Shown: positions 13,560 to 33,080 of the stretch, in pieces | How the letters are laid out: every line of letters begins with the position of its first letter | Numbering within the stretch: position 1 is the first letter of the stretch | Origin: Streptomyces canus | GTDB taxonomy: Bacteria > Actinomycetota > Actinomycetes > Streptomycetales > Streptomycetaceae | DNA: 64,000 nucleotides | Reading direction: 5' to 3' | Assembly: GCF_030816965.1 (NCBI RefSeq) | Contig: NZ_JAUSYQ010000002.1 | Coordinates: 7,678,001 to 7,742,000, forward strand | Position numbers and translations under genes: made by a program | The notes under the pieces: generated by a model | What the model saw: the letters and a program-made list of their open reading frames with translations, nothing else | Told to the model about the DNA's origin: nothing | Database searches by the model: none

Positions 13560-13579
13560 ATGACCGAACCATTGGCATG

Positions 13580-13609
13580 TTGACTTTCGGCTGGACGAGC
13601 CAGAGGATT
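13580..13609 (+). promoter_or_regulatory. Promoter of the NagZ-like gene, probably leaderless
   Basis: TTGACT (13580-13585) and AGGATT (13604-13609) are separated by 18 bp. The transcription start would fall at about 13615-13617, on the GTG start codon at 13616. The hexamers are close to the housekeeping consensus. Confidence 0.5.
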
Positions 13610-13615
13610 CCGGGG

Positions 13616-15094: not shown

Positions 15095-15100
15095 TTCGTC

Positions 15101-15178
15101 TGCGGGCCGGTGGGGGCTGGTCGCGCCCACGCGGCGGAGCCGCATATCGACACAGCCCCGCGCGCCTAAAGGGGCGCG
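15101..15178. repeat. Dispersed Streptomyces intergenic repeat, copy 1
   Basis: A 78-bp element starting TGCGGGCCGGTGGGGGCTGG and ending in the hairpin GGGGCGCG, with an internal GCGGCGGAGCCGC palindrome. It closely matches the copy at 23676-23750. It lies between convergent nagZ and the GH5 gene, can fold, and supplies the TAG stop of the GH5 gene (15168-15166), so it probably also works as a bidirectional terminator. Confidence 0.8.
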
Positions 15179-16476
15179 TTGATGATCTCCTTGATTCCCC
15201 GTGCCGCCAGGTACGCCTCGTCCTCCGCCCGGTCGGCCCGTACTACTGCCGGGCGCATCCCCTCCTGGCGCAGCTTCATCCACGCCTCGAAGTACGCCCC
15301 GCCCGGCCCCGACACCGATCGCGTGGACGGCGTGCAGTCCAGGACCAGGGCCGTGTCGCGCGGCTCAGCCGGCAGTGATCCGGCTCGCAGTTCGGCGATC
15401 GTCGTCGCCAGCGCCTCCGCGATCGGCTTGGGCCGCCCCTCCGCGTCGAACAACCCCAGCGTGTACTCCAGCTCCGGGAAGTCCGCCAGTGACCGGTCCA
15501 CGTCGTGGGAGCACCACCACGTCACGCCCCACAGGTTCTCGCACCCCGACGCGTTCAGGATCGTCTCGCGGGCGAAGTGCGGGGCGTCGGCGGCCGGGAT
15601 GTGGGGTTCGGGGGCGCCGGTTTCCTGGACCCAGACCGGGCGGGCGGGGTCCTCGGCGTAGGCCTTGGCCAGTTCCGTGCCGTATTCGGCGAGGTGCAGG
15701 ACCTGGGGGGAGCGGGGGCCGTAGAGGCTCGCGCAGCCGCCGGAGAAGACCCAGGGGTGGACCGTGGTGAGGTCTCCCTTGCGGGCCGAGGCCTCCGGGG
15801 TGAAGGGGTGGTCGTCGCCGTACCAGGCCGCGTCGTACGCGGAGTGGGTGACCAGGCCCTGGGAGCCCAGGCCGTCCCGGGCGGCGGCCAGCAGGGTGTC
15901 CAGGTAGTGGTCGACCTCGGCCACCGTGGCCGGGTTGTGCTCGATGAGGTTGTTGAGCTCGTTGCCCAGCTGGAGGCCGATGAGGTTCGGGCGGCCGGCG
16001 AGAGCGCGGCCGAGGGTGCGGAGCAGGTCCGCCTGGGCGTCGATCGCCTCCGGGTCGGTGAAGACGTTGCGGTGGTGCCAGCTGCGGGTCCACTCCGGAT
16101 AGAAGTCGAAGCTCGACAGATGGCCCTGCACGCCGTCCACCAGGACGTCGAGGCCCGCCTCGGCCGCCAGTTCGACCAGCTGCGCCAGCTGGTCCACGGC
16201 GGCGGTGCGGATCAGCGTGCGGTTGGGCTGCAGGAGCGGCCAGAGGTGGAAGACCCGGACGTGGTCGAGCCCGAGCCCGGCTATCTGGGCCAGGTCCTCG
16301 CGGGCGCGGCCCGGATCGAAGTCGTGCCAGGCGTGGAACCAGCCGTGGCGGGGCGTGTAGTTGACGCCGAAGCGGAGCGTGGGAATGGGATCCTCCTCGG
16401 GTTCGGCCCGGTCCGACCTCGGTCCGGCTCTTGTTCTGCTCTTGTCCTGCGCGAATGTATCAATCACCATAGTCAT
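15166..16476 (-). CDS. Glycoside hydrolase, GH5-like (possible beta-mannosidase)
   Basis: A clan GH-A (beta/alpha)8 hydrolase of up to 436 aa. Family blocks seen are LRFGVNYTPRHGW, LQLGNELNN (acid/base Glu after Asn), WVQETGAPEP (nucleophile Glu) and GVTWWCSHDV. No signal peptide is present, so it acts on imported oligosaccharides. The layout reminds me of the GH5_18 beta-mannosidases that cut Man-beta-1,4-GlcNAc; this is inference. The first ~30 codons of the longest frame (AGA, ACA, ATT and similar) are not Streptomyces-like. GAGGAGGA at 16398-16391 sits just before an ATT at 16386, which may be the true start. The extreme C-terminus is encoded by the dispersed repeat. Confidence 0.82.
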   Translation of the reverse strand: MTMVIDTFAQDKSRTRAGPRSDRAEPEEDPIPTLRFGVNYTPRHGWFHAWHDFDPGRAREDLAQIAGLGLDHVRVFHLWPLLQPNRTLIRTAAVDQLAQLVELAAEAGLDVLVDGVQGHLSSFDFYPEWTRSWHHRNVFTDPEAIDAQADLLRTLGRALAGRPNLIGLQLGNELNNLIEHNPATVAEVDHYLDTLLAAARDGLGSQGLVTHSAYDAAWYGDDHPFTPEASARKGDLTTVHPWVFSGGCASLYGPRSPQVLHLAEYGTELAKAYAEDPARPVWVQETGAPEPHIPAADAPHFARETILNASGCENLWGVTWWCSHDVDRSLADFPELEYTLGLFDAEGRPKPIAEALATTIAELRAGSLPAEPRDTALVLDCTPSTRSVSGPGGAYFEAWMKLRQEGMRPAVVRADRAEDEAYLAARGIKEIINAPL

Positions 16477-16498
16477 TGATGGGTAATGATTTGAACCA
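16456..16498. promoter_or_regulatory. Divergent promoter region with TGGTTCA-type half-site
   Basis: The AT-rich stretch between the GH5 and kinase genes contains ATCAAT and ATTGAT as an inverted pair (16460-16465 and 16475-16480), and TAATGATTTGAACCA at 16484-16498. The complement of the latter begins TGGTTCAAAT, the half-site shared with the other promoters of the locus. It overlaps both candidate start codons. Confidence 0.45.
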
Positions 16499-17555
16499 CG
16501 AACTGCGCGACGGGCGCGACCTGGTCGTCGGCCTCGACGCCGGGGGCACCCGCACCCGCGCGGTCCTCGCCGCCGCCGACGACGGGCGCGTGCTGGGCGA
16601 GAGCACCGGTGGCCCGGGCAACGCCATGACCGTGCCGGTCCCGCAGCTCACCGACCACCTCGCCGAGGCGCTGGCCCGGGTGGTGCCCGAAGGTGCGCGC
16701 GCCCGGGTGGTGGCCGTGACCGGTGGTTTCGCGGGCGCCACGGCGGCCTCCGAGGAGGACCCCGGCACCTCCAGGGCCCGCACGGCCCTGACCGAGGCCC
16801 TGGGCCGCCTCGGCATCCCGACCGGCCGGGTGGGCGTCTGCAGCGACATCGAGGCCGCCTTCGCCGCCGCCCCCGGCACCCCCTCCGACGGCCTCGCCCT
16901 GGTGGCGGGCACGGGCGCGGTCGCCATGCGCATCACCGACCGTCGCGCCACGACCACGGTCGACGGCGACGGCTGGCTCCTCGGCGACGAGGGCAGCGGC
17001 TTCTGGATCGGCCGCAGCGCGGTCCGCGCGGCCCTGCGCATGGCCGACGGCCGCGGCCGTCCGACCGTCCTCGCCGGCTGGGTCGGCCGCACCCTCGGCC
17101 TGCCGGTCGACGTCCTCCCGAAGGGCGGAATCCCTTCGTACGACCGTGGCGGCACCGCCCTCCCGAGCGGTACCGGCGCCCACCCCACCGGCGTCCCCGG
17201 CTGGTCACGCGCCCGGCGTGAGGACTTCCGCCGCCATCTGCTGCCCGCCGTCATGGCCGATCCGCCGATCCGGCTGGCCCGCTTCGCCCCGCTGGTCGCC
17301 GACGCGGCCGCCGAGCAGGACGCCGTGGCCGAGGCGATCCTGAGCGAGGCGGCGGACCACCTGCTGGAGACCGTACGGGCGCTGGAACCGCGCCCCGGCG
17401 AGCGGATCGTCGCCACGGGCGGCCTGCTCGGCCCCCGGGGTCCGCTCACGGCCCCGCTGGCCGAACGGCTCCACACCCACGGCCTGCGCCTCGACTGGGT
17501 GGCCGACGGCTGTCCCGGCGCGGTGGCCCTCGCACGGCTGGCGCACCCGTCATGA
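16479..17555 (+). CDS. BadF/BadG-type ATPase, probable N-acetylglucosamine kinase
   Basis: A 358 aa actin-fold sugar kinase. VVGLDAGGTRTRAVL near residue 15 is the phosphate-1 loop, LALVAGTGAVAMR the phosphate-2 loop, and GDEGSGFWIG a block typical of GlcNAc kinases of the BadF family. It would phosphorylate GlcNAc or a related sugar freed by the neighbouring hydrolases. ATG at 16479 is preferred; a TTG at 16476 would add one residue. No Shine-Dalgarno is visible, and CATAGT five nt upstream could be a -10 giving a leaderless message. The last codons overlap the GH3 gene start by 4 bp, so the two are coupled. Confidence 0.87.
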   Translation: MGNDLNHELRDGRDLVVGLDAGGTRTRAVLAAADDGRVLGESTGGPGNAMTVPVPQLTDHLAEALARVVPEGARARVVAVTGGFAGATAASEEDPGTSRARTALTEALGRLGIPTGRVGVCSDIEAAFAAAPGTPSDGLALVAGTGAVAMRITDRRATTTVDGDGWLLGDEGSGFWIGRSAVRAALRMADGRGRPTVLAGWVGRTLGLPVDVLPKGGIPSYDRGGTALPSGTGAHPTGVPGWSRARREDFRRHLLPAVMADPPIRLARFAPLVADAAAEQDAVAEAILSEAADHLLETVRALEPRPGERIVATGGLLGPRGPLTAPLAERLHTHGLRLDWVADGCPGAVALARLAHPS

Positions 17556-19780
17556 GCGATGTCCTCTACCGCGACCCCACCGCACCCGTGGACGCCCGCG
17601 TCCGTGACCTCCTGTCCCGGATGACCCTGCGCGAGAAGGTCGGCCAGCTCAACCAGCGCATGTACGGCTGGGACGCCTACCGCCGCACGCCCGACGGCGG
17701 CTTCGAACTCACCGAGGCCCTGCACGCCGAGACCGACCGTTTCGAGGGACTCGGTGCCCTGTACGGCCTCCAGCGCGCCGACGCCTGGTCCGGCGTGGAG
17801 CACGGGAGCGGGCCCGGCGCAGAGGACGGAGCCGCCCTCGCCGAGCTGGTCCAGCGGCACGTCGTGGGCCGCAGCCGGCTCGGCATCCCCGCACTCTTCG
17901 TCGAGGAGGTCCCGCACGGCCACATGGCCCTCGACGGCACGGTCCTTCCGGTCAATCTGGCGATCGGCGCCACCTGGGACCCCGACCTCCACGAGCGCGC
18001 CGCCGCGCACGCCGCCGCCGAACTGCGTGCCCGCGGCGGCCACGTGGCCCTCGTCTCGGCGCTGGACATCGTCCGCGACCCGCGCTGGGGCCGTACGGAG
18101 GAGTGCTTCGGCGAGGACCCCTACCTGGCCGCCCGGCTGACGGAGGCGCTGGTCCGGGGCATGCAGGGCGTCCCGGACGACGACGTCTTCGCCGCCGACA
18201 AGGCTCCTGTCGTCCTCAAGCACTTCGCCGGCCAGGGTGCCACCGTCGGCGGCCGCAACTCCGCCGAGTCGGAACTCGGCCTGCGTGAACTCCACGAGAT
18301 CCACCTCCCCGCCGCCCGGGCCGGTGTCCGCGCGGGCGCCGCCGCCGTCATGGCCGCCTACAACGAGGTCGACGGGATGCCCTGCTCCGGCAACCGCGCC
18401 CTGCTCACCGGGCTGTTGCGCGAGGACTGGGGCTTCGACGGGCTCGTCATGGCGGACGGCCTGGCCGTCGACCGGCTGGCGCGGATCACGGGGGACAAGG
18501 TCTCCGCGGGTGCTCTCGCCCTCGACGCCGGTGTGGATCTGAGCCTGTGGGACGAGGGCTTCACGCATCTGGAGGAGGCGGTCGAGCGTGGGCTGGTGAG
18601 CGAGAAGACCCTCGACGCCGCCGTCGCCCGGGTGCTGCGGCTCAAGTTCCGGCTGGGCCTCTTCGAACAGCAGGACGCGACGGCCCGCCCGCCGGCCGCC
18701 GGTGAGGCGATCAGCAGGGAGGCCGCCCGGGCGGCCGTCACGCTCCTGCGCAACGACGGCGTGTTGCCCATCGGCGCGCGCGTCTCACGGATCGCCGTTC
18801 TCGGACCCCAGGCCGCCACCACCGCACACCAGTTGGGCGACTACACGGCCCCGCAGCGCCCCGGCACCGGCAGCAGCGTCCTCGACGCCCTGCGCCGCCT
18901 CGCTCCGCCCGGCCTGGAGATCCGCCACGCCCCCGGCTGCGCCCTCACCGGCGCCGACCTCTCCCGGATCCCCGAGGCCATCGCCCAGGCGGCCGCGTCC
19001 GACCTGGCCGTCCTGGTGCTGGGCGGCAGCAGCGCCCGTACCCCCGGGACCGAGTTCGACGCCAACGGGGCCGCACGCACAGCCGTGTCCGAGATGACCT
19101 GCGGCGAGGGCGTCGACCTGGCCGGACTGCGGCTCGGCAGGGCCCAGTACGCGCTCCTGGACGCCGTCGTCGCGACCGGCACACCTACGGCGGTCGTCCT
19201 GATCCAGGGCCGCCCGCACCTGGTCCCCGACACCCCGGCCGCGCTGCTCACCGCCTGGTATCCGGGCCCGTGGGGCGGCGAGGCGATCGCCCGGGTACTG
19301 CTCGGGCTCACGGAGCCGGCCGGCCGACTGCCCGTCTCCGTCCCGCGCTCGGCGGCCCAACTCCCCGTCTATTACAACCACAAGGACACCGAGTACGGCG
19401 GATACGTGGACGAGAGCGCGCAGCCGCGGTACTCCTTCGGGCACGGGCTGTCGTACACGAGTTTCGCGTACGGCACGCCACGGCTGAGGGGCCTCACGGT
19501 CGAGGTCGATGTCACCAACACCGGTCAGCGCTACGGGCGTTCGGTGGTCCAGGTCTATCTGCGCCGTCTGCTCACTCCCACCTGGCCGCGCACCCTCGAA
19601 CTGTGCGCGTTCGAGGGTGTCGGCCTGGCTCCGGGTGAGCGCCGTACGGTCTCGCTGACCCTGGACCCCGAGCAGCTCGCCCCTTCCCGGACGGTCGAGA
19701 TCAGGGTCGCCGCGTCAGCCGGGGAGGCGCTCGGCGTGCGGGGTCACAGCTTGACGGCCCCTGACGAGACACCCTTGTAG
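17552..19780 (+). CDS. Glycoside hydrolase family 3 (beta-glucosidase-type)
   Basis: A 742 aa three-domain GH3 enzyme without signal peptide. The N-terminal barrel has LKHFAGQGA, and the nucleophile Asp is in GFDGLVMADGLAVD. The alpha/beta sandwich holds GEGVDLAGL near the expected acid/base region, and a C-terminal fibronectin-like domain begins near YSFGHGLSYTSF. Such enzymes remove terminal beta-linked glucose, xylose or GlcNAc; specificity cannot be read here. ATGA overlap couples it to the kinase. Its 3' end overlaps the convergent permease gene by 37 bp. Intracellular location fits hydrolysis after import. Confidence 0.9.
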   Translation: MSDVLYRDPTAPVDARVRDLLSRMTLREKVGQLNQRMYGWDAYRRTPDGGFELTEALHAETDRFEGLGALYGLQRADAWSGVEHGSGPGAEDGAALAELVQRHVVGRSRLGIPALFVEEVPHGHMALDGTVLPVNLAIGATWDPDLHERAAAHAAAELRARGGHVALVSALDIVRDPRWGRTEECFGEDPYLAARLTEALVRGMQGVPDDDVFAADKAPVVLKHFAGQGATVGGRNSAESELGLRELHEIHLPAARAGVRAGAAAVMAAYNEVDGMPCSGNRALLTGLLREDWGFDGLVMADGLAVDRLARITGDKVSAGALALDAGVDLSLWDEGFTHLEEAVERGLVSEKTLDAAVARVLRLKFRLGLFEQQDATARPPAAGEAISREAARAAVTLLRNDGVLPIGARVSRIAVLGPQAATTAHQLGDYTAPQRPGTGSSVLDALRRLAPPGLEIRHAPGCALTGADLSRIPEAIAQAAASDLAVLVLGGSSARTPGTEFDANGAARTAVSEMTCGEGVDLAGLRLGRAQYALLDAVVATGTPTAVVLIQGRPHLVPDTPAALLTAWYPGPWGGEAIARVLLGLTEPAGRLPVSVPRSAAQLPVYYNHKDTEYGGYVDESAQPRYSFGHGLSYTSFAYGTPRLRGLTVEVDVTNTGQRYGRSVVQVYLRRLLTPTWPRTLELCAFEGVGLAPGERRTVSLTLDPEQLAPSRTVEIRVAASAGEALGVRGHSLTAPDETPL

Positions 19781-20625
19781 AACCACCGCTGGGTGATCAC
19801 GAACAGCACCAGCACCGGGATCACGGAGATCACCGAGCCGGCCATGACCATCCGCTGGTCGTAGCCGAACGACGAGTTCTGCAGGCGTGAAAGTCCCAGC
19901 GTCAGCGTCATGTTGCTCTCGGAACGCAGCACGATCAGCGGCCACAGGAAGTCGTCCCAGGCGCTGATGAAGGTGTTGATGACGACCACCAGGATCGCGC
20001 CCCACGCGGACGGCAGATACAGGTGCCGGAAGCGCTGCCACTCGTTCGCGCCGTCGAGCATGGCCGAGTCCTCGATCTCGCGCGGGACCGCGAGGAACGC
20101 GCCGCGCATGAGGAGGACGTTGATGGCGCCGACGAATCCGGGCAGCCACACCCCGGCCAGGTGGTCGACCAGGCCCATGTCCCGGATGCTCAGGAACAGC
20201 GACACCATGATCGACTCGAAGGGGAACATCATCGAGGCGATCAGGACCACCCAGACCGCCTTGCGGCCCTTCCAGCCGGGCTTGGAGAGCATGTAGCCGG
20301 CGGTGGTGGAGAAGACCAGCTGGCTGGTGACCGACAGGGCGACCACGATCAGGCTGTTCCTGATGTACGTGCCCACCGGCACCTGGTCGAAGACGGTCCG
20401 GTAGGCCCGCAGGGTCGGGTGGTGGGGCAGCAGGGTGGCGTTCGCGCCGAAGACGTCCTCGCCGGTGCTCTTCAGGGAGGCGAGGAGCTGCCAGAGCAGC
20501 GGGCCGACGGTGAGGCCGAGGACCAGAAGGAGCAGCAGATAGCGGACGACGAGTTCGCGGGGGCGGCCGTAGTCCCGCCAACGCGGCATCAGGCGGCGGC
20601 GCTTGGGTGCGACAGCGGTCGTCAT
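19744..20625 (-). CDS. Sugar ABC transporter permease, MalG type
   Basis: A 293 aa inner-membrane permease with about six membrane segments. The conserved cytoplasmic loop that contacts the ATPase is present as EDSAMLDGANEWQRF (residues ~190-205). ATG at 20625 overlaps the stop of the upstream permease (ATGA). It is third in the binding protein-permease-permease operon. No ATP-binding gene is in the operon; in Streptomyces such importers usually share the MsiK ATPase, which would be encoded elsewhere. Confidence 0.93.
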   Translation of the reverse strand: MTTAVAPKRRRLMPRWRDYGRPRELVVRYLLLLLVLGLTVGPLLWQLLASLKSTGEDVFGANATLLPHHPTLRAYRTVFDQVPVGTYIRNSLIVVALSVTSQLVFSTTAGYMLSKPGWKGRKAVWVVLIASMMFPFESIMVSLFLSIRDMGLVDHLAGVWLPGFVGAINVLLMRGAFLAVPREIEDSAMLDGANEWQRFRHLYLPSAWGAILVVVINTFISAWDDFLWPLIVLRSESNMTLTLGLSRLQNSSFGYDQRMVMAGSVISVIPVLVLFVITQRWFYKGVSSGAVKL

Positions 20626-21644
20626 GCCTCGTCCTCCTTCGTCAGGCGCTGCGCCAGCAGGGTCAGTCCCAGCGTCAGCAGGAACAGGGCCACGCTGACG
20701 GCCGAGCCGTACCCCGCGTTGCCGGTGATCGGGTCCAGGCCGACGTCCCGGATGTAGAAGGGCAGGGTGCGGTCGGCGCCACCGGGGCCGCCGGTGGCGC
20801 TGCCGAGCATGTAGATCTCGGTGAAGACCCTGAGCGATCCGATGCCGGTGAGGGTGCCGACGAGCATCATGGCCTGCCGTACGCCGGGCACGGTGATGTG
20901 CCAGAAGCGGCGGGCCGCTCCGGCGCCGTCCATGGCGGCGGCCTCGTGGAGTTCCTTGGGGACGTTCCCGAGGGCGGCCAGGTAGAACACCATGTACCAG
21001 CCGAGCCCCTTCCACAGGGTCAGGCCCATCGCGGACAGCAGGATCAGCCAGGAGTCCGACAGGAACGGGACGGCCGACCTGATCAAGTGGGCCTTCTGGA
21101 GCCAGGTGTTGACCAGTCCGTCGTCGGCCAGCAGCCACTGCCAGCTCAGTCCGACGACCACGCTGGAGGCCAGCACCGGTGTGTAGAAGGCGGACCGGAA
21201 GAAGCCGATGCCCGGCAGGTTCTTCTCCACCAGCACGGCGAGCAGCAGCGGCAGCAGCACCATCAGCGGTACGACGATCAGCGCGTACAGGATGCTGTTG
21301 CGGGTCGCCAGCCAGAAGTCCGAGTCGTCCAGCATCCGCGTGTAGTTGTCGAGTCCGACGAAACTCGACGCGCCGCCCAGCGGCTTGGCGTTGGTGAACG
21401 ACAGCAGGACGGTGTTGAGGAACGGGAACACCCCGAAGATCACCGCGCAGGCGATCGCGGGCGCCGTCCACAGCCAGGGCAGCCACCAACGGCGGTACAT
21501 GGCGGCGCCGTTGGCGCCGGGTGCGGGTCCCGGCAGGACGGCCCTGGCGAGTCGGCGGGCGCGGGACGGGGCCGGGCCCGGTGCGGAGACCTTCGCCTCC
21601 GCACCGGGCACGGACACCGGGTTCGTGGTGTGCGTCGCCGCCAT
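20622..21644 (-). CDS. Sugar ABC transporter permease, MalF type
   Basis: A 340 aa permease with a ~50 residue basic, Ala/Pro-rich N-terminal tail and six predicted membrane segments. The EAA loop reads HEAAAMDGAGAARRFWHITVP. It pairs with the MalG-type subunit to form the channel for the oligosaccharide bound by the upstream lipoprotein. Start ATG at 21644 overlaps the preceding stop by one base (TGATG). Confidence 0.93.
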   Translation of the reverse strand: MAATHTTNPVSVPGAEAKVSAPGPAPSRARRLARAVLPGPAPGANGAAMYRRWWLPWLWTAPAIACAVIFGVFPFLNTVLLSFTNAKPLGGASSFVGLDNYTRMLDDSDFWLATRNSILYALIVVPLMVLLPLLLAVLVEKNLPGIGFFRSAFYTPVLASSVVVGLSWQWLLADDGLVNTWLQKAHLIRSAVPFLSDSWLILLSAMGLTLWKGLGWYMVFYLAALGNVPKELHEAAAMDGAGAARRFWHITVPGVRQAMMLVGTLTGIGSLRVFTEIYMLGSATGGPGGADRTLPFYIRDVGLDPITGNAGYGSAVSVALFLLTLGLTLLAQRLTKEDEA

Positions 21645-23017: not shown

Positions 23018-23035
23018 GTGATGCCCCTCCACGGC

Positions 23036-23050
23036 TGGTTCAATGAACCA
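23036..23050. promoter_or_regulatory. Perfect palindromic operator TGGTTCAATGAACCA
   Basis: TGGTTCA-A-TGAACCA is a perfect 7-bp inverted repeat around one base. It lies 19 bp upstream of the binding-protein start codon and downstream of the predicted -10, a typical repressor roadblock position. It is the best copy of a motif that recurs at the other promoters of this locus. Confidence 0.65.
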
Positions 23051-23135
23051 ACTCCGACTCCGATTGATGAAAAGGTGGACCAGAATTCATCGGAGGTCAA
23101 TGGTTTCCCGTGTTGCGTTTAGGTTCCGTGCGAGA

Positions 23136-23822: not shown

Positions 23823-26800
23823 GGGGTCACCTCCAGGGCGATCGCCCTCGTGTAGGCCACGTGGCCGTTCCACGCCGCCTTCGCCATCAGCCAGTACGAG
23901 CCCGGTGGGATCGACGAGCCATCCACCTCGATCGCGCACTCCACCTCTTCCCCGCCCGGCACCGTGAAGCCCCGCAGCCCGGGTCCCACGCCCCGCCACG
24001 TGCCCCACGACGACACCGTCCACAGCTGGCCGCCGACCGGGCCCCGTGTGGTGTTGCGCAGGCTCACCGGAACCTGAGCCCGCTCACCCTTTCGCACGGT
24101 GACCCGGTCGGCGTTCAGCTCGCACACCAGCCCCTGACCGGCGGGCGGACCGCCGGGCACGTCGAGGCCGACGACGTCCTCGTAGTTCTGACCGCCGTAC
24201 GACAGCCGGGCCGTGAGCCAGTGGCGGCCGGGATCGGCGTCCGGTGGCGGTGTCACCGTCACCTCGGCCAGCGAGAAGCCGCCGGGGCCGAGCGTGTACG
24301 GCAGTTCGGCGGGCTCCGCGGACCAGCCGGGCGGCACCTCGAAGACCACGGTGCCGTTCGTCGAGGTGTCGGTGAGCTCCGAACTGACCCGGACCGTCGC
24401 CGTGACGGGGCCGGAGGCGGTCAGCGCCGTGGGGGAGAGGTAGACGGAGACGGGCATGTTGCCGCGTGGGGCGGGCCCGGAGTTGTGCAGCCAGTAGCGG
24501 GTGTGGACGGGCTGGGCGGGCTCGTGGGCGGCGACCCCGGGATCGGCCGTCGGCTCGGGCGCCTGTGGGGGCGTGGCCAGGACGGTAGCCACCTCGAAGC
24601 CGGTCAGCTCCGCCTCCAGCGCCCCCTCGCCGTCCGGGATCAGCGACTCCCCGGGCCTTTCCAGTACGTCCGCCCGGGCGCCCTCCGTCCAGGCGACCGG
24701 CCCGCGCACCCGGGCCCGCACCGGCCGTCCGTTCACCTCGTGCACGCGGACGACGACCCCGCGCCCCGGGTCCGCCGGCGTCGTGCCGCCCCGGGCCAGC
24801 GGGGAGCCCAGCGGCTTGAGGGCGTCGAGGAGCACCTCGCGGGCGGGCTCGACCGCCAGCAGGGAGGTCTTCCTGGGCAGGAGCGGGGACGTGCCCTCGC
24901 CGCGCAGCCGGGCCGTGAGCGGATGGTTGAACTCATGGCCGCGGGCGGGGAGTCGGAGGTCCCGCCAGTCACCCTCGCCCGCCACGACCGCGTACTCGAA
25001 GGTGTGCGACCAGCGCTGGAGCTGGAAGCCCGACCCGTCGGGGGTCGTGCGGCGGGGCGGGTCGACCCAGATGCCGGACGGCCAGCCCGTGCAGGAGCGC
25101 ATCAGGGACATGTAGAGGTCTCCGGAGGAGGTGACCACACAGCCCGGCGTGCCGCGGTTCAGGACGGCGAAGCCGCGCCCGTCCCAGGCGTCGCCCGGCG
25201 GCAGGGCCTCGCCACCGCCCGGCGCTGTGGCCGTGACGGTGAAGTCCTCCAGGTCGGCGATCAGCGCGTCGACCGCCTTGGCGTCACCCGAGGGGTCCGC
25301 GCCCGCGATCACCAGCAGCGGCAGGCGTTCCAGGTCGCGCAGGTCGGCGCCCGGTACCCACTCCTCGCGCAGAGAGGCGCGCGGTGCGACCCACACGGCC
25401 GCCACGCCCCGCTCGGCGACCTGGCGGCGCAGCTCGCGGTCGGCGGCCGGGTCCATGGCGAGCGCCTCGGCGACCAGGGAGTTGCGCTGCGGGCCGCCGA
25501 CGGCGATCCGGATGTCGGGGAGGTTGGAGTCCACCTCCAGATCTCCGTAGCGGGGGCCGCCCGCGATGGTCGAGGTGGCGGTGACGCCGGCGCGGACCAG
25601 GGCCGCCGCGAGCGGGGTGCCCAGCTCACCGGCCTCGTCCCAGTCGGCGTACACCAGCTCCGCGACACCGATGGCCCGCCTGCCGAGCGGCGCACCGGAG
25701 TCGTCGTGCAGGAGGACCCGGGCCGTGGACCCCAGTGCGAACCAGGTGTTGGCCGGGTTGTCCAGCGTCCACGGGAACTGCTCGCTGTCCACCTCGACGA
25801 AGCCGAAGCCGCGCCCGATCACCGCGTCGGCGACCTCGTGCACGGGCAGCCCGCCCCGCACGTCGGAGGGCCAGCGGACCCGGATCAGGCGGTCGGCGCC
25901 GTCGTAGCCGTCGATCGTCGTGGAGACGTCGAGGCGGTCGACGCCCGCCCAGAGGGTCAGCCGCTGGGTGTACTTGAAGAGGCCGAGGTCGGCGCGGACG
26001 GTGATCCGGGAGCCGGCCGGGGGAGTGATCGACATCGACCTCGGCGGTCACGTCACGGCCGCGCGCGGCGGTCGTGCCGGTCGGGGTGAGGTGCCAGGGG
26101 CCCTCGCCGAAGCGCGGGTGCCTCGGGAACTCCTCCTGGACGACGAGCTCGTTGCCGATCTCCCCGGCGGGCAGGAGCTCCCGGCCGCCCTCGGTCACCG
26201 CCCGCAGACTGCTCACGGCACCACCGCGCGCTGCGTCGACCGTCACCTCGTAGAACTCGTTGCGGATGGTCGTCCCCTCGCCGGGGGTCCACCCGGGGAG
26301 GGAACCGGCCGCCAGGGGCAGGGTCTTGAGGCCCATGCCGGGCACCTGCGGGACGACGACCCGCAGGGTGCCGTCCCCTTCGCGCACGGCCGGCAGCGGC
26401 TGGAAGTCGTCGCCGACGGGCACCAGGCCCGGGTCGTCGACGGTCAGCACGTCCTGGCGTTCCCAGGTCGCCGGGTTGAAGACCACCAGGTCCGGGCCGG
26501 TGCCCGGCTCGACCCGGTCGGCCAGCGCCTTGGTGGCGTCCGCGTGCACGGTCTCGGCGAGGTCGGCCAACTCCCGCCAGCCGGTGAGGAGATCGATGTA
26601 CACCTGGTCCGACTCGGAACCGGTGATGGCGTCGTGGTGGGCGCCGTAGACGAGGTGCCGCCAGGCCTTGTCGAGGGCCGCGTCCGGATAGGCGTGCCCG
26701 GTGACGAGGGAGGCGAGCGTCGCCCAGGCCTCCGCGTCGGCGAGGAGCGTCTCGCCGTGGCGCTGGGCCTGCTTGGTGTCGATGTAGGAGACGTCCTTGC

Positions 26801-28034
26801 CGGTGTAGATCGGGTTCATGTCCCGGGTCTGCGGCGAGGCCCTGCGGCCCTCGGCGTCCAGCTCCGCGCGCACGGCGGCGAAGAAGTCCCGGGGAACGGC
26901 GCTGATGAACCGGGGCCAGACGTAACGGGCGTTCCAGTCCCGGTGGATGTCCATCACCCAGCGGCACGGCGGCGCGTAGTCCCCGCCGACCGGGAGCAGC
27001 ACATTGCGCGTGAGCGCGACCTTCTTGAGCCCCTGGAAGAGCTTGAACGCCTCCGCCTCCGCCTCCGGCAGCGTCGGCGCGTTGTCGATCCGCCAGCCGG
27101 CGCCGTAGTGGTTGACCATGTACGCGGTGAGGATCCCGCGCCCGGAGGGGGCGATCCAGTCGAACTCCGCCGGGAACTGCATCCGCGTCGGGTCCCGCGG
27201 CTCCTCGCCGAAGACGGACAGGGTGGGTCCCCACTGGTGGAAGGGACCGCGCGCCCAGGAGCTGGACGTCACCCCGGCGTCGGCCATCAGCCCCGGGAAC
27301 TGCGGGTCGTGCCCGAACGCGTCCAGTTGCCAGGCCGTCTCCGGGGACGCCCCGAGGATCGCGCGCTGGTATCCGTCGCCGTACAGCGCATTGCGTACGG
27401 TCGCCTCGGCGCCGGTGAGATTGGTGTTCGGCTCGTTGTAGGTGCCGCCCATGATCTCGACGCGGCCGGTGCGGATCAGCTCGCGCAGGAAGCCGCGCTC
27501 CTCCGGGAAGGAGTCCCAGTACGGCTTGAGGTAGTCGACCTCGGCCAGCACGAAGGTGTACGCCGGGTCGCGCCGGGCCAGGTCGCTGTGGGCGCGGACC
27601 AGGCTCATGCCCGACTGGCCGCGCGAGTCGAAGGTGCGGGCCGGCAGGCCGGTGGTGGCCGGGTCGTCGGCGACGTCCCAGGTCTCGGTGTAGGCGCCCT
27701 GGGTGTTCCACCAGACGGGGTCGTAGTGGAAGTGGCTGACCATGAACATGGTCCAGCCGGGCTCGGCGACCGTGAACTCCCCGGTGCCGTGCGCGCTCTC
27801 GGCGCCGTCCGTCGCGGTGACCGTGATCGGCCCGCCGTCGCCGGTCACGGGTATCTCGGCGCGCACGGTGCCGTTCTCGCCGACGGTGACGACCGACGCT
27901 CCGACGCCGCGTCCCTCGACGGTGACGTGGACCGAGCGACCCGGAAGGTGCTCGATGCCGACGGCCACCACCTGGAGCGGCCGCTCGGGTGTACCGACGA
28001 ACAACTCGGTCGACTCAACAGCGGTGACACGCAT
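23819..28034 (-). pseudogene. GH38 alpha-mannosidase, apparently frameshifted
   Basis: A ~1,400 codon GH38 alpha-mannosidase split into two frames. The first (from ATG 28034, ribosome-binding site TAGGAG) carries the zinc motif HFHYDPVWW at residues 101-109 and the nucleophile Asp238 in WQLDAFGHD. The second (from about 26020 to the stop at 23819) carries the C-terminal beta-sandwich domains, including PGLRGFTVPGGEEVECAIEV. Frames join if one base is removed from the five Gs at 26019-26023. Either the gene is broken or the assembly has an extra base. Two further upstream and downstream open parts keep normal codon use, so any lesion is recent. It would remove alpha-mannose from imported glycans and precedes the His-rich gene with a 4-bp overlap. 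Confidence 0.85.
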
Positions 28035-28084
28035 GGGGCTCCTACGAGATGACTCGGGGGAGCACCATCCTGGCACTGAGAGGA

Positions 28085-28131
28085 TGATTCAAACAACCAT
28101 CTTTGCGTTATCTCGGTGGTTCATCCATGCA
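28085..28131. promoter_or_regulatory. Operator-like sites upstream of the alpha-mannosidase gene
   Basis: TGATTCAAACAACCA (28085-28099) matches the palindrome at 23036 at 12 of 15 positions, and TGGTTCATCCATGCA (28117-28131) carries a good left half-site. Both lie between the mannosidase start at 28034 and the stop of the RpiR gene. Confidence 0.45.
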
Positions 28132-28144
28132 TGATCGGTCAGGG

Positions 28145-29029
28145 TCAACGCGTACGGCGTGCCTTCACCGCGTGCTGCGGGGTGATGTGGTCGGTGAGCG
28201 CGAGGGAGGCACTGGCCCGCTGGTAGGCGACCTGGCCGACGCGGACGTAGAGGCAGTCGACGATCATCAGGACGGAGTGCCGGCCACCGATGCTGCCGGT
28301 GCGGAAGCTGGTCTCCGAGGTCGCCGAGATGAGCCGGATGTCGGCGGCCTTGGCCAGGGGGGAGCGCGGGTCGGTGGTGATGGCGATGGTGGTCGCGCCC
28401 CGCTCCTTGGCCATCTCGAAGGGCTCGAGGGTCTCGCGGGTGGCGCCGGAGTGGGAGATGCCTATGGCCACGTCGGCGGGGGTGAGCAGGGCCGCGGAGG
28501 TGGCCGCGCCGTGCACCTCGGTCCAGCCGCGGACCTGGCAGCCGATGCGGAACAGCCGGGTCTCGGTCTCCTGGGCGACCGCGCCACTGCCGCCGACGCC
28601 GTACACGTCGATACGGCGCGCCTTGGCCAGCGCCTGGGCGGCGCGCTCCAGGGCGTCGAAGTCGATGCGCTCGATGGTCTGCTGAATGGCGCGCAGATCC
28701 GCGCTGCCCACCACCTGGACGACCCGCTCCAGGCTGTCGTCCGGCGAGATGTCGGGGCCGATCTCGGCCGAACCCCAGTCGGAGACCTCGCCGCGGCCGC
28801 GCTCCTGGGCCAGTTCGATCAGCAGATGCTGGTAGGAGTCGAGTCCGATGGCGCGGCAGAACCGGGTCACCGTGGCCTGCGAGGTCCCGGTGCGGCGGCC
28901 CAGCTCGGCGGCCGAGCAGTGGGTGACGGCGGCCGGATCCTCCAGGATCAGCTCGCCCACCTTCCGCAGGGAACCGGCCAGCCGGGGCAGCTCGGTGCGG
29001 ATCAGGGTGGTGACGTCGGTCGGAGGCAT
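28145..29029 (-). CDS. RpiR/MurR-family transcriptional regulator with SIS domain
   Basis: A 294 aa regulator. The N-terminal helix-turn-helix (CSAAELGRRTGTSQATVTRFCRAIG, residues ~38-62) has the RpiR form, and the C-terminal SIS domain (residues ~120-270; VYGVGGSGAVAQE, GISHSGATRETLE) would bind a phosphosugar effector. It is divergent from the SIS isomerase gene with 119 bp between start codons that hold two copies of the TGGTTCA motif. It is the only regulator within the sugar locus and so is the best candidate for that operator. Family members mostly act as repressors relieved by sugar phosphates. Confidence 0.9.
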   Translation of the reverse strand: MPPTDVTTLIRTELPRLAGSLRKVGELILEDPAAVTHCSAAELGRRTGTSQATVTRFCRAIGLDSYQHLLIELAQERGRGEVSDWGSAEIGPDISPDDSLERVVQVVGSADLRAIQQTIERIDFDALERAAQALAKARRIDVYGVGGSGAVAQETETRLFRIGCQVRGWTEVHGAATSAALLTPADVAIGISHSGATRETLEPFEMAKERGATTIAITTDPRSPLAKAADIRLISATSETSFRTGSIGGRHSVLMIVDCLYVRVGQVAYQRASASLALTDHITPQHAVKARRTR

Positions 29030-29085
29030 GGAAAGAAGGTATCAGCCACCCTTAGGGCCACTGATTGAATACCAGGACCGCGCTG

Positions 29086-29134
29086 TGGTTTATTGATTCA
29101 TCGATGGGTGATTGTATGGTGGTTCAATCCATCA
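29086..29134. promoter_or_regulatory. Two operator-like repeats in the divergent regulator/isomerase promoter
   Basis: TGGTTTATTGATTCA (29086-29100) and TGGTTCAATCCATCA (29120-29134) both resemble the perfect palindrome at 23036; the second matches at 12 of 15 positions. A further ATTGAATACCA lies at 29064-29074. The spacing suggests autoregulation of the RpiR gene and control of the isomerase. Confidence 0.5.
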
Positions 29135-29148
29135 GTGGGGAGTGTTGC

Positions 29149-29913
29149 GTGTCCGTCGAGTCAGTCAGCGCCCAGGGCTTCGCCGAACAGAGCCTGGACG
29201 TCCTCCGTCACGTCACCGAGTCCGCCCGCGAGGACGTGCGCCGCGCCGCCGAGCTGATCGCCGACTGCATCCGCGCCGACGGTGTGATCCATGCCTTCGG
29301 CACCGGTCACTCCCAGGCGATGGTCCTGGAGGTCGCGGGCCGCGCGGGCGGTCTCGTGCCCACGAACCGGCTCCAGATTTCCGACCTCGTCCTCTACGGC
29401 GGCGACGACCCGAGCGTCCTCGACGACCCGCTGCTGGAGCGTGAGCCGGGGGTGGCCGTCCGCCTCTACGACCTGGCCGCGCCGCAGGCCCGGGACCTGT
29501 TCGTCATCATCTCCAACTCCGGCGTCAACAACGTCATCGTGGAGATGGCGCTGCATGCCAGGCAACAGGGGCACAAGATCCTCGCGATCACCTCCCTCAC
29601 CCACACCGCGGCCGTGCCGGCCGGGCACGCGAGCGGGAAGAAGCTCGTGGACCTGGCGGATGTGGTGCTGGACAACGCGGCGCCGGTCGGGGACGCGTTG
29701 CTGTCGTTGCCGGGGGGTGGGGCGGTGGGGGCGCTGTCCACTCTGACCGGGGTGATGCTGGTGCAGATGGCGGTGGCCGAGGCTTCGGGGCTGCTGCTCG
29801 CCGCGGGTCAGCGTCCGCCGGTCTACGTGTCGGCCAACGTGCCCGGTGGGTTCGAGGGGAACCTGGAGCTGGAGAAGCGGTACGCGGGGCGGGTTCGGCG
29901 TACGGCGAGTTAG
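29149..29913 (+). CDS. SIS-domain phosphosugar-binding protein (UPF0309 family)
   Basis: A 254 aa SIS-domain protein. IHAFGTGHSQAMVLEVAGRAGG and FVIISNSGVNNVIVEMAL are the two sugar-phosphate loops, and the C-terminal segment ends in GGFEGNLELEKRY, typical of UPF0309. Relatives are sugar-phosphate isomerases or deaminase-like enzymes. In this locus it could act on GlcNAc-6-phosphate or mannose-6-phosphate. GTG at 29149 follows GGGGAG; upstream in-frame codons lie within the operator region and are not coding. It is divergent from the RpiR gene. Confidence 0.87.
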   Translation: MSVESVSAQGFAEQSLDVLRHVTESAREDVRRAAELIADCIRADGVIHAFGTGHSQAMVLEVAGRAGGLVPTNRLQISDLVLYGGDDPSVLDDPLLEREPGVAVRLYDLAAPQARDLFVIISNSGVNNVIVEMALHARQQGHKILAITSLTHTAAVPAGHASGKKLVDLADVVLDNAAPVGDALLSLPGGGAVGALSTLTGVMLVQMAVAEASGLLLAAGQRPPVYVSANVPGGFEGNLELEKRYAGRVRRTAS

Positions 29914-29940
29914 TGCTTGGGCGGCGGTTTGCGGGGAAGC

Positions 29941-29988
29941 TGCGGGCCGGTGGGGGTCGGTCGCGCAGTTCCCCGCGCCCCTTCAGGG
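29941..29988. repeat. Dispersed repeat, short form, copy 3
   Basis: TGCGGGCCGGTGGGGG followed by TCGCGCAGTTCCCCGCGCCCC is the short variant of the dispersed element. It sits between the convergent isomerase and GH84 genes and contains the GH84 stop codon (29985-29983). Its GC-rich arms can fold and probably terminate both transcripts. Confidence 0.7.
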
Positions 29989-32900
29989 AGTCAGTGCCAC
30001 CGCCAGCGGATAGGCGCCGGTGCTGAAGGGGGGCCCTGCTGTCCCCGAGGTGACGTCGATCGGTACCAGGGCGTTTCCGTCGGCTGTCGTCACGTACGCC
30101 GTGCTGCCGTTCCAGTTCAGGGCCACGTCGAACGCCGACTTTCCGACGGTCACCTGCTTGCCCGGGGCGCCGGTCACCGTGTCGACCGGGGTGATCGTGT
30201 CCCCGTTGCTGGGACTGACCCACAGGGTCCGGCCGTCCGGTGACAGGCCCAGGCCGTACGCCTGGCCGGAGACCAGGAAGGTCGGTTCGGTCTCGTTCGT
30301 CGTCGTGTCGATCGGGGTCACCGTCGAGCCTCCGGAGTTGGAGACGTACACCGTCCTGCCGTCGGGGGCCGCCACCACGTTGAAGGGGCTGGGGCCGACC
30401 GGGATCGGCGCGCCCGCCGTGCCGGTGGTGAGGTCGACCGGGCTCACCGTGTTGTCGTGGATGTCGGCCACGTACAGGGTTCTGCCGTCGGGCGTGATCG
30501 CCATGTTCTCGGGGCCGTCGCCGACCGGGACCGGAGTGCCGGTCCTCAGGGTGCCCGTGTCGATCGACTGCACTGTGCCGTCCGTGTAGTTGGCGACCCA
30601 GAGGGTGCCGCCGTCCGGGGTGAGCGCGAGTCCGGCGGGGACCTTGCCGACGGCGACCGTGGCGGTGACCGCGCCGCTCGCCACGTCGATCACGCTGACC
30701 GTGTCGGAGCCCTGGTTGGCGGCGTACGCGGTACGCCCGTCCGCACTCACGACGACCTCGCCGGGGTTGTTGCCGACGGCGATGTTCCTGGTCGTGCCGG
30801 AGGACAGGTCGATGGAACTCACCGACGCGCCGCTGAAGTCGGCGGTCAGGGCGCGGGGTGTGCCGGTGCCGTCGGTGACCCGGACCGGGAGTGCGCGGTC
30901 CAGGAGGCCGGTGCCCGACACGACGACGGAGTGGACGCCCTCGGTCTTCCCGGTGAGGGTGACGGTGACCTTGGCGTCCGGGGTCGTGGCCGTGCCCTCG
31001 GAGGGCGAGGCGGTGACACCGTCGGGCACGTCGAGCTTCCAGCTCACGGTCCTGGCCTGCGCGTCGGAGAAGTCGAGGGTGACCGTGGCGGAGGCTCCGG
31101 GCCTGAGCGACACGGAGCTGGGCGAGAAGGCGGCGTCCACGCCGGGATCGGGGGCGTTCTCCAGCATCGTGGTGTAGAGGAACTGGTCCATCACGCCCGG
31201 CGAGACCTGCTGCGGAATGGCGTCCAACTCCTTGCGGTCTTCCTGGAGTCGCTTCCAGTACGTGGAGACCGCGTCCGCGTCACCGCGCTTGTGGGCCAGC
31301 AGCAGATCCACGGCCGTCCCGCCCGCGCCGCCGTAGCGGCCGAGCTTGTCGAGCCAGGCGGAGGTCTCGTCGAGGAACCCGGGGTTGTCGAGCCGGGCGC
31401 GCAACTGGGCGGGGGTGGCGGCCATGTCGGCGAAGTAGGACGTCAACCGGGTCGCCGCTCGGTCGAGTCCGCTGTCCTGCTCGTAGGCCTTGCGGAAGGC
31501 GGCGATCAGCCGGGTGAGGGTGGGGGACTCGGTCGGGTCGAGCTGGGAGGAGTAGTTGTTCTCGGCGAAGATCCGCAGCCACTTGGCGGCGTGGGGGCCT
31601 GCCAGGTCCTGGACCGAGGCGGCGAACGCCTTGCGTGGGTCGTAGTGGGCCGGGTTCCACAGATAGGCGGCCGAGGTGAACAGGGCGATCCGGCTCGCCT
31701 CGCCCTGGACCATCGGGTTGGCGGTCACGCCGGTGGCGGCGCTCGCCACGCCGGGTTCCCGGCCCGTGTAGGGGCCGAGGAGGAGACGGCTGGTGACGTA
31801 GTCGTTGACCGGGTAGTTGTCCCAGACCAGGATCGGGTGGCCGTAGACCTCGCGGGCCTGCTTCAGCTGCTCGGTGGTGATGGTGGGCGCGATGACACCG
31901 ACGCCGGTCCACTCGACGACCACGGACGGATCGAGCTGCTCCCTGAGGGCCTTCTTGTACGGGGAGTCGGCGAGGTCGGAGTACTCGGTGGGGACCATTT
32001 CCAGGGGCTGAAGTCCGGTGTGGTCGGCGGAGAACCGCTTCCACACGGTGTTCAGCAGATGGGCCTGCGCGGCACCCGCCGCGCCACCGCCCGTGCCGAA
32101 CTCCTGCTCGTCCTCGGGGCAGTTCCACTTGGTGTAGCTGATGTCGTCCAGCGGGATCGCGAAGGAGCGCACGCCGATGGCGTACAGCGAGTCGAACTTG
32201 GCGGTGAGCGCCTTGATGTCGGCGTCCGACGAATAGCAGACCGACAGGCCGGGGGAGAGGGCGTAGGTGAAGCGGACGTGGTCGGTGTCGGCCCGGTCGA
32301 CCAGTTCCTTCAGCCGGTCCAGCGCCGCGGCCGGGTACTCGTCCCGCCAGCGGGCGCGCAGGTAGTCGTCGTCCTTGGGGGAGTACACGTAGACGTTCTG
32401 CTTCGTCCGGCCGTAGAAGTCGAGTTGGGCGAGTCGCTCGGCGTGCGTCCAGGGGGTGCCGTAGAAGCCCTCGATGACTCCGCGGAGCGCGGCGGTCGGC
32501 CAGTCGCGGACCTTGATCACGGGCAACTGGCGCTTGCCGTCCAGGAGTTGGCGCAGGGTCTGGGCGGCGTAGAAGGTGCCGGTGGTGTCGACGCCGGAGA
32601 GGGCGAGGAGGGCCTGGCCGTGGCTGCGGCCGGAGGCCAGGACGTAACCGCCGGAGGCGAGACCGGACGGGGAGGCGACGCCGAGCTGTTTCAGTGCACG
32701 GGCGGTGCCGCTGTTCTCCCCGGGGCCGCCGAGGTAGACGGTCAGGTCGGACGCGGATCGCCGGTCGCCGGCGTCGACCCTCGTGATGCGGTCGGCTCCG
32801 GCGGCCTTGAGGGCCGCCTCGACGACCTTTCGGGCCGAGGGATCGGTACCGGGGCCGACGACCTCGACCACCCGGTCGGGAACGGGGAGCCGGCCGGATC

Positions 32901-33042
32901 CGACGGTGATCTTCTGAGGGGTCGGCCATACCTCCGGCACCGTCTGCCGGGGGTCGGCCGAGGCGGGGGCCGTCGGCGCCGCGAGGCCCAGGGCCAGCAG
33001 CAGGGCGGCGACCACACATCTGAGATTGATGAATGAATCCAC
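29983..33042 (-). CDS. Secreted GH84 beta-N-acetylglucosaminidase with YVTN beta-propeller
   Basis: A 1,019 aa exported protein. Residues 1-29 are a signal peptide. A GH20b/GH84 N-terminal domain covers ~35-175. The GH84 barrel starts at RGVIEGFYGTPW (187-198), and the catalytic Asp pair is D299-D300 in PLDDISY. A helical domain follows. From about residue 745 to the end are six or seven YVTN/YncE repeats (DGRTLYVADIHDNTV and similar) forming a beta-propeller that may bind carbohydrate or cell wall. It would remove GlcNAc from glycoproteins or glycans outside the cell. The GTG start at 33042 overlaps an ATTCATTCATCAAT stretch resembling the locus operator; no Shine-Dalgarno is seen. Confidence 0.9.
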   Translation of the reverse strand: MDSFINLRCVVAALLLALGLAAPTAPASADPRQTVPEVWPTPQKITVGSGRLPVPDRVVEVVGPGTDPSARKVVEAALKAAGADRITRVDAGDRRSASDLTVYLGGPGENSGTARALKQLGVASPSGLASGGYVLASGRSHGQALLALSGVDTTGTFYAAQTLRQLLDGKRQLPVIKVRDWPTAALRGVIEGFYGTPWTHAERLAQLDFYGRTKQNVYVYSPKDDDYLRARWRDEYPAAALDRLKELVDRADTDHVRFTYALSPGLSVCYSSDADIKALTAKFDSLYAIGVRSFAIPLDDISYTKWNCPEDEQEFGTGGGAAGAAQAHLLNTVWKRFSADHTGLQPLEMVPTEYSDLADSPYKKALREQLDPSVVVEWTGVGVIAPTITTEQLKQAREVYGHPILVWDNYPVNDYVTSRLLLGPYTGREPGVASAATGVTANPMVQGEASRIALFTSAAYLWNPAHYDPRKAFAASVQDLAGPHAAKWLRIFAENNYSSQLDPTESPTLTRLIAAFRKAYEQDSGLDRAATRLTSYFADMAATPAQLRARLDNPGFLDETSAWLDKLGRYGGAGGTAVDLLLAHKRGDADAVSTYWKRLQEDRKELDAIPQQVSPGVMDQFLYTTMLENAPDPGVDAAFSPSSVSLRPGASATVTLDFSDAQARTVSWKLDVPDGVTASPSEGTATTPDAKVTVTLTGKTEGVHSVVVSGTGLLDRALPVRVTDGTGTPRALTADFSGASVSSIDLSSGTTRNIAVGNNPGEVVVSADGRTAYAANQGSDTVSVIDVASGAVTATVAVGKVPAGLALTPDGGTLWVANYTDGTVQSIDTGTLRTGTPVPVGDGPENMAITPDGRTLYVADIHDNTVSPVDLTTGTAGAPIPVGPSPFNVVAAPDGRTVYVSNSGGSTVTPIDTTTNETEPTFLVSGQAYGLGLSPDGRTLWVSPSNGDTITPVDTVTGAPGKQVTVGKSAFDVALNWNGSTAYVTTADGNALVPIDVTSGTAGPPFSTGAYPLAVALTP

Positions 33043-33080
33043 CTGGGAATGCTAGGAGTGTTGAATGCATCATTCAATGG
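33024..33080. promoter_or_regulatory. AT-rich promoter region of the GH84 gene
   Basis: TTGAAT and ATTCAA form an inverted pair with a 5-bp spacer near 33061-33077, and ATTGATGAATGAATCCA overlaps the GTG start. These are weaker relatives of the TGGTTCAAT motif found elsewhere in the locus. Confidence 0.35.

Follow-up and report, generated by a model that had tools for sequence, protein, structure and literature searches.

Paired 15-bp boxes in a sugar locus of Streptomyces canus as probable operators of an RpiR-family regulator

We analysed a 64-kb stretch (the window) of the 10.66-Mb genome of Streptomyces canus. It contains a sugar locus with the gene of an RpiR-family regulator (28145-29029, minus strand), and short inverted repeats, here called boxes, lie in the promoter gaps of this locus. 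Judging from sequence comparison, the boxes are very probably operators of this RpiR protein. A tetramer would repress the promoters, and an N-acetylhexosamine 6-phosphate would release it. The compared genomes show the boxes, their arrangement in four clear pairs, how they are conserved and how they track one RpiR subfamily. The regulation is of an ordinary kind, in an unusually clean form. Its pair geometry, which resembles that of Escherichia coli MurR, is new relative to an earlier note on this DNA.

Boxes in the promoter gaps of the locus

RpiR orthologues are present in 65 of the 392 sampled genomes of the genus (E value 1e-90 or better). Fifty-eight of these, the S. canus genome included, encode proteins with at least 80% identity, and the remaining seven show 62-66%. 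We fetched 32 ortholog regions, some of them cut by contig ends or by the choice of the stretch. The motif was learned by palindromic expectation maximization (EM) on 86 promoter gaps from 24 ortholog loci (RpiR identity above 75%), with the window excluded. A soft mixture EM in which the number of sites was not usefully limited proved over-permissive, with hundreds of sites. The 15-bp palindromic solution, TGgtTgAaTcAacCA, was kept instead. After refinement, the motif reads TGgtTgA-a-TcAacCA. It is a 15-bp pseudo-palindrome with half-site TGrwTsA and an A/T centre, and its matrix (169 sites, 18 bits) was used with a score cut-off.

The nine best sites of the window start, in order of score, at 23036, 28085, 29086, 29120, 16452, 33062, 33030, 16484 and 28117 (24.2 to 15.9). 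The top one is box B1, TGGTTCAATGAACCA (23036-23050; score 24.2), in the promoter of the ABC transporter solute-binding protein (SBP) gene. It is a perfect odd palindrome with 7/7 matching arm positions, as the earlier note had said. The other eight form four pairs. Between the GH5_18 (glycoside hydrolase family 5, subfamily 18) and kinase genes, box A1 CGAATGTATCAATCA (16452-16466; 20.0) is followed by A2 TAATGATTTGAACCA (16484-16498; 16.5), which covers the first kinase codons if that gene starts at ATG 16479. The GH38 promoter carries C1 TGATTCAAACAACCA (28085-28099; 24.0) and C2 TGGTTCATCCATGCA (28117-28131; 15.9). Likewise, the GH84 promoter carries E1 TGAATGAATCCACCT (33030-33044; 18.0) and E2 TGAATGCATCATTCA (33062-33076; 18.8). 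The boxes of these three pairs are exactly 32 bp apart, start to start. Such a pair spans 15+17+15 = 47 bp, and its boxes are about three turns of the helix apart. At the promoter of the SIS-domain protein, D1 TGGTTTATTGATTCA (29086-29100; 22.8) and D2 TGGTTCAATCCATCA (29120-29134; 22.4) are 34 bp apart, with 19 bp between them.

Clear pairs are present at four of the six promoters. The SBP and rpiR promoters have one box and one tentative second element each. The rpiR box, R1 AGAAGGTATCAGCCA (29034-29048; 12.2), lies at the start of the gene and is conserved in orthologs. The second elements are B2 TGAAAAGGTGGACCA (23068-23082; matrix score -8.7) and R2 TGAATACCAGGACCG (29066-29080; -5.4). 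Both were picked by eye, 32 bp beyond the box that the matrix had found. Below the nine best sites, the window holds an uncertain single box at 13557-13571 (14.2), at the start of the first GH3 gene and without a good partner, then R1 and then a site scoring 9.8. Similar single boxes occur at the orthologous GH3 start in two related loci (L100 and L105).

All the sites named in the earlier note are present where it had placed them, and all are among the nine. It had described a weak form at 33024-33077. Sites do exist there, but they are the two good boxes of the GH84 promoter. The box at 16452-16466, the one at the rpiR start and the fixed spacing of the pairs were missing from its list. It had also proposed a motif search in orthologous loci, and the matrix learned in this way ranks its sites, together with 16452, at the top of the window.

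Controls were consistent with a specific signal. At a score of at least 14, nine sites of the window fall inside five promoter gaps and one falls outside. With 1000 column-permuted matrices, the gaps contained 0.07 sites on average and four at most, so none reached nine. The maximum was two sites in 500 dinucleotide shuffles of the gaps. A control of 400 kb from the same genome gave three single sites and no pair at this score. The literal word TGGTTCAATGAACCA, with up to three mismatches, has five matches in the window (four distinct sites) against 0.25 expected, and 0 of 100 shuffles reached five.

A single box is not unique in the genome. The pattern TGRWTSWWWSAWYCA has 108 sites with 0-2 mismatches in the whole genome, compared with 41 for a control pattern. 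Both of its 0-mismatch sites and 4 of its 13 sites with one mismatch are in the locus, which leaves 9 of 15 outside. The off-locus sites inspected have no partner; the strong ones (668859, 1087043, 5453924 and others) have none scoring above 3.1 within 25-45 bp. A wider regulon was considered and dropped because no paired site was seen among them, and the regulon looks local. One strong off-locus site lies, by eye, just before a dnaK-like start. Another, TGGTGCTATCAATCA at G000:C2:1087043 (L217; score 20.9), is a single site in an AT-rich stretch. In addition, some boxes are poorly symmetric: the one at 16484 matches at 2/7 arm positions. For both reasons, the case rests on pairing and conservation.

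Conservation of the boxes and of their spacing

We scored a held-out set of 74 named loci, after dropping 6 of 80 that overlapped with the training set. Boxes scoring at least 14 number 403 in 47,385 bp of promoter windows and 19 in 1,383,121 bp elsewhere. Of the 19 boxes elsewhere, five share the same word and come from five loci, where they are about 1 kb away from rpiR, and several are no more than 140 bp from the start of this gene. Some of the 19 are therefore boxes of promoters for which no window had been set. At least one box is present in 32/32 fetched loci (RpiR identity 62-98%) and in 74/74 held-out loci.

The pairs are conserved as well. In the held-out set, 71/71 GH38 promoters have one box or more, 64 have two, and in 61 the two are 32 bp apart. 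The SIS promoters have at least one in 72/72, at least two in 69, and two at 34 bp in 55. For GH84 the values are 31/32, 17/32 and, at 32 bp, 12. The SBP promoters have at least one box in 66/67 and two in none. The only held-out kinase promoter has a box (1/1); this gene otherwise lies beyond the flanks. In the fetched loci with RpiR above 75%, a partner at 32 bp with a score above 5 is present in 17/21 kinase promoters.

Pairs with both sites scoring at least 10 and an offset of 30-36 bp, overlapping ones included, number 241 in the promoter windows of the held-out loci versus 2 elsewhere. After merging overlapping sites, 166 pairs are left. The two pairs elsewhere are both in one locus (L160) and have a sequence like the GH38 boxes. 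We also took the best partner offset of each promoter, measured upstream or downstream according to gene orientation. It is 32 in 68/71 GH38 promoters, 34 in 53/72 SIS promoters and 32 in 22/32 GH84 promoters.

The seven loci with 62-66% RpiR identity took no part in training. Of 13 genes sought there, only those of the kinase and the SIS protein accompany rpiR. Their SIS promoters carry both boxes (at least 10) exactly 32 bp apart in 6/7 loci, and the seventh has scores of 11.2 and 8.9. The gap between rpiR and the kinase gene has one strong box in 7/7; a near-palindrome at +32 scores only 0.4-5.6. The kinase gene is present in 27 and the SIS gene in 31 of the 32 fetched loci, some of which are incomplete regions.

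B2 can be recognised in 66/67 held-out SBP promoters, inside a conserved block and at a constant 32 bp from the strong box. R2 can be recognised in 71/73 rpiR promoters. Its distance to the best downstream box is invariably 32 bp, and the sequence in between is variable. This variable sequence makes the constant rpiR spacing suggestive. The automatic search for a second box did not pick offset 32 at the SBP and rpiR promoters. In the window, offsets 25 and 29 outscore 32 at the SBP promoter. There, within 23060-23110, a stretch of about 40 bp (CCATTGACCTCCGATGAATTCTGGTCCAC.TTTTCATCAATC, minus strand) is conserved in 66 held-out promoters. Perhaps it is the promoter core or the site of a second regulator, and not a second RpiR box.

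The putative regulator and its mode of action

The protein encoded at 28145-29029 has the two domains of its family, an HTH_6 domain (PF01418, 45.5 bits; cut-off 28.3) and a SIS domain (PF01380, 78.5 bits; cut-off 25). The earlier note had taken it as the probable binder, and our comparisons argue for the same protein: the boxes track its subfamily, related loci of other types are free of boxes, and the pair geometry is MurR-like. Among 19 RpiR relatives with 39-46% identity, no box scoring at least 14 was found in 19/19 (best score 10.3). The helix T-G-T-S-Q-A-[TS]-V-T-R-F-C occurs only in ten box-bearing rows of the alignment, two of which (L036 and L065) come from one genome. The helix-turn-helix (HTH) region differs in the 19 box-free relatives. 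Likewise, a box of at least 14 is missing from 12/12 GH38 relatives (51-75% identity) that were fetched, out of 17 matches, from other locus types in genomes not among the 65; the best score there is 13.8 and unpaired. Beside the RpiR of L234, which has 39% identity, we looked for palindromes and saw no convincing one.

The layout resembles that of E. coli MurR. In the part available of a 2025 preprint (PMC12713135), a MurR tetramer is proposed to bridge two sites 17 bp apart, with a 47-bp span over the -35 and -10 elements. Here, too, an RpiR-type regulator is accompanied by paired sites with a 17-bp gap and a 47-bp span over likely -35/-10 elements, a layout read from DNA only. The 32-bp offset was measured before we compared it with MurR. 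This likeness is one of geometry. The SxSG loop of the S. canus protein (ishsgatre) also aligns with that of MurR (isysgskke). Nevertheless, it scores only 108.6 bits on the MurR equivalog NF012026, below the cut-off of 408. Its partner genes are N-glycan hydrolases, a kinase and a NagS paralogue, and several promoters carry the boxes. That the MurR spacing recurs in a distant actinobacterial relative suggests that a tetramer bridging two boxes is a general mode of RpiR proteins.

At the GH84 promoter (minus strand, 33077-33049) we read TTGAAT-17-TAGCAT. Its likely -35 (33072-33077) overlaps the distal box E2, its -10 (TAGCAT) is at 33049-33054, and the proximal box E1 lies at about +1. At the SIS promoter, TTGATT-16-TATGGT has its likely -35 (29093-29098) in D1, and D2 lies at the end of the -10. 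Both boxes of a pair would be occupied by a single RpiR tetramer, in the form of two dimers. RNA polymerase would then be blocked at GH84 and SIS, because the pair brackets their likely -35/-10 elements. Probably RpiR also regulates its own gene. Imported N-glycan fragments would be cut by the GH38, GH5_18, GH84 and GH3 enzymes, and their sugars phosphorylated by the BadF-type kinase. The effector could be a phosphorylated amino sugar, most likely an N-acetylhexosamine 6-phosphate such as N-acetylglucosamine 6-phosphate (GlcNAc-6P). It would bind the SIS domain and free the promoters. We infer this induction from the ligands of the RpiR family and from the recurring neighbours (rpiR, the kinase gene and the SIS gene). 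In the text available of PMC12713135, four studied RpiR proteins that are compared there bind sugar phosphates.

RpiR proteins named NanR, from Vibrio vulnificus, Clostridium perfringens and Streptococcus pneumoniae, are likewise found in amino-sugar catabolic loci and respond to N-acetylmannosamine 6-phosphate. According to the passages available of PMC12713135 and PMC4509764, the NanR site of S. pneumoniae is an 18-bp near-palindrome, and the promoters of C. perfringens share a conserved 14-bp element. The S. canus locus differs from these in its A/T-centred TGGTTSA half-sites, and no sialic-acid gene is among the genes identified in the window. The S. pneumoniae NanR (SpNanR) also differs in being described as an activator whose site has no second full site next to it.

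Several points weigh against RpiR repression through paired boxes. The counts are not independent events, since the loci are related by ancestry. At score 14, no second box was found in 7/71 GH38, 3/72 SIS, 15/32 GH84 and 67/67 SBP promoters of the held-out set, and 4/21 fetched kinase promoters have no 32-bp partner. If both boxes must reach 14, 5/7 divergent loci are without a pair and 2/7 keep one. In most relatives, the two SIS boxes are 34 bp apart and not 32. The matrix scores B2 and R2 negatively. It prefers offset 25 in 55/67 SBP promoters, and at rpiR the offsets scatter, with 32 chosen in 6/73, though 32 has the highest mean. The invariant 32 bp at these two promoters follows in part from how the elements were chosen, and the SBP spacing says little because the whole block is conserved. 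The box-free RpiR loci are short (2.4-9 kb), and the nearest box-free HTH (L037, SGTSPATVTRFC) differs little. The -35/-10 elements were identified by eye and are convincing at GH84 and SIS only, and one kinase-promoter box falls in the first codons. Finally, SpNanR is an RpiR activator, so the control here could be of either sign.

An alternative is that another regulator binds the boxes, be it DasR, a SARP-like protein or a distant LacI or ROK protein, and RpiR merely resides in the locus. Amino-sugar genes of Streptomyces are commonly under DasR control. Besides, a gene resembling AfsR/SARP-type regulators (34230-37931, plus strand; BTAD, NB-ARC and TPR domains) begins about 1.2 kb past GH84, and it is from sequence that we infer RpiR binding. 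We consider another binder quite unlikely. The DasR consensus has no match with up to three mismatches in the window. The SARP-like gene occurs in 7/62 fully flanked relatives, so this candidate cannot explain the boxes. Moreover, neither the RpiR relatives whose HTH differs nor the GH38 relatives from outside the locus type have boxes beside them, and the pair geometry equals that reported for MurR in the preprint text available. A further alternative would keep RpiR as the binder and make it a ligand-stabilised activator, as proposed for SpNanR. There, in the part available of PMC12713135, the ligand stabilises the tetramer and leaves the DNA affinity unchanged. In the S. canus locus, avidity could be the role of the tentative elements B2 and R2. 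In the preprint, however, 55 bp separate the SpNanR site from the -35, whereas the GH84 and SIS boxes overlap the likely -35 and are located at the -10 or immediately beyond it, an arrangement shared with the repressor MurR. Activation seems improbable to us.

The boxes might also be conserved core promoter or coding elements of loci that share ancestry, as some of them overlap a likely -35 or the kinase start. This is very unlikely. Boxes in five different promoter gaps agree with a single matrix, the spacing is kept in the divergent clade, GH38 relatives outside the locus type have no boxes, and the 400-kb control holds no pair. Chance occurrence of AT-rich words in a G+C-rich genome has in its favour that nine of the 15 sites with at most one mismatch fall outside the locus, some of them scoring about 21. 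Nevertheless, no pair was seen in the 38 off-locus stretches checked around such sites. The held-out counts, the permuted matrices (0/1000), the shuffled gaps (two sites at most), the pair counts and the 400-kb control refute this explanation, to which we give almost no credence.

RpiR repression through paired boxes would provide a testable operator code, two 15-bp boxes with a 17-bp gap. It would hold for an RpiR subfamily that is encoded in 65/392 sampled genomes of the genus, and it would be linked to a locus that has a NagS paralogue and is likely to serve N-glycan utilisation. Among the matches listed by a literature search, which covered few subscription papers, there was no RpiR operator study in Streptomyces.

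Gene content of the locus and the NagS paralogue

The plus strand encodes a hydrolase with a GH3 N-terminal domain (13340-15094; PF00933; true start by eye probably ATG 13556), a BadF-type sugar (hexosamine) kinase-like protein (16476-17555; PF01869; hexokinase and GlcNAc kinase relatives in the PDB) and a GH3 glycosidase (17552-19780; PF00933, PF01915). The minus strand encodes a GH5_18 beta-mannosidase-like protein (15166-16476, start uncertain; PDB 7lr7, ScGH5_18, E 1.4e-135), an ABC sugar permease (20622-21644; PF00528) and the SBP (21644-23017; PF01547). A probable second permease (19744-20619, minus strand) has its frame from orthology and is 82-96% conserved where found in ortholog loci. 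Further along this strand are the 5' part of a GH38 alpha-mannosidase gene (25626-28034; PF01074, PF09261) and, beyond rpiR, a GH84 beta-N-acetylglucosaminidase gene (29983-33042; PF07555, E 1.1e-114). An Rfam search of the window gave no match, and ARAGORN found no tRNA.

The hydrolases point to the N-glycan core, judging from their families, which corrects the account of the earlier note. The S. cattleya GH5_18 structure paper reportedly describes such loci in Actinobacteria. According to the text available of PMC6160142, GH38, GH5_18, a beta-N-acetylhexosaminidase and an ABC importer make up the set proposed for cytoplasmic breakdown of the N-glycan core in Cutibacterium acnes. GH5_18, GH38, a beta-N-acetylglucosaminidase and an ABC importer are together in the window too, as in C. 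acnes locus 1 and in the loci of the S. cattleya and Bifidobacterium longum GH5_18 enzymes. By homology, the locus resembles an N-glycan-core utilisation cluster, and N-glycans would be its substrate. Unlike those loci, it has GH84 and GH3 in place of GH20, contains the kinase, the NagS paralogue and RpiR, and has its putative operators mapped.

The SIS-domain protein (29149-29913, plus strand) had been called an isomerase. It is rather a paralogue of NagS, the GlcNAc-6P dehydratase (NF002805, 280.7 bits in a scan from 29065; PDB 9eol, SCO4393, E 2e-35). All four NagS catalytic residues (H53, R64, E94 and D179) are conserved, as are S54, S119, S121 and N228, and S91 is replaced by proline. The NagS orthologue of this S. 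canus strain lies elsewhere in the genome (L110) and matches SCO4393 at E 5.9e-127. The window protein is 38% identical to it (40% in another comparison). In the part available of PMC12680351, NagS orthologues are at least 58.7% identical, and more distant homologues were inactive when tested on GlcNAc-6P. NagS genes are also recognised by their position beside dmdR1; the SIS gene lies between rpiR and the GH84 gene, with no dmdR1 adjacent. Given the proline at S91, the identity below 58.7% and the inactive distant homologues, the substrate may differ from that of NagS.

The core of RpiR, BadF-type kinase and NagS-like SIS protein could also form a route that phosphorylates and dehydrates amino sugars. 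RpiR would then sense the substrate or the dehydrated product (6P-chromogen I or an epimer), and not plain GlcNAc-6P. We regard this as a doubtful proposal. If true, a reaction with toxic effects in the NagS pathway would serve as a regulated nutrient pathway in this locus. Upstream of the NagS orthologue, at about 1400-1416 of L110, the sequence CACTGGTCCAGACCGC resembles a DasR site (three mismatches by eye to the consensus). Perhaps the two NagS paralogues are under two regulators, one through the DasR-like site and the other through the RpiR boxes.

Some other features of these loci deserve mention. A gene from 23136 to about 23800 (minus strand), between SBP and GH38, encodes a protein with a histidine-rich C-terminus (AHGHEHPGDPSHPDHEHRH) and is present in 69/74 relatives. 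Checked as a possible regulator, it had no Pfam match above the cut-off. In the divergent clade, L091 has a beta-lactamase-family serine hydrolase gene and an HTH gene between the kinase and SIS genes (14237-19066). As a speculation, this arrangement hints at a role in cell-wall amino-sugar recycling. In the GH38 region (23819-28034, minus strand), the GH38 part and the downstream NEW3-domain part (23819-26035) are in different, overlapping frames, and the open frame has 820 amino acids. In most orthologs listed, GH38 is a single open frame of about 1420-1500 amino acids. The split is either a frameshift in the S. canus genome or an assembly error.

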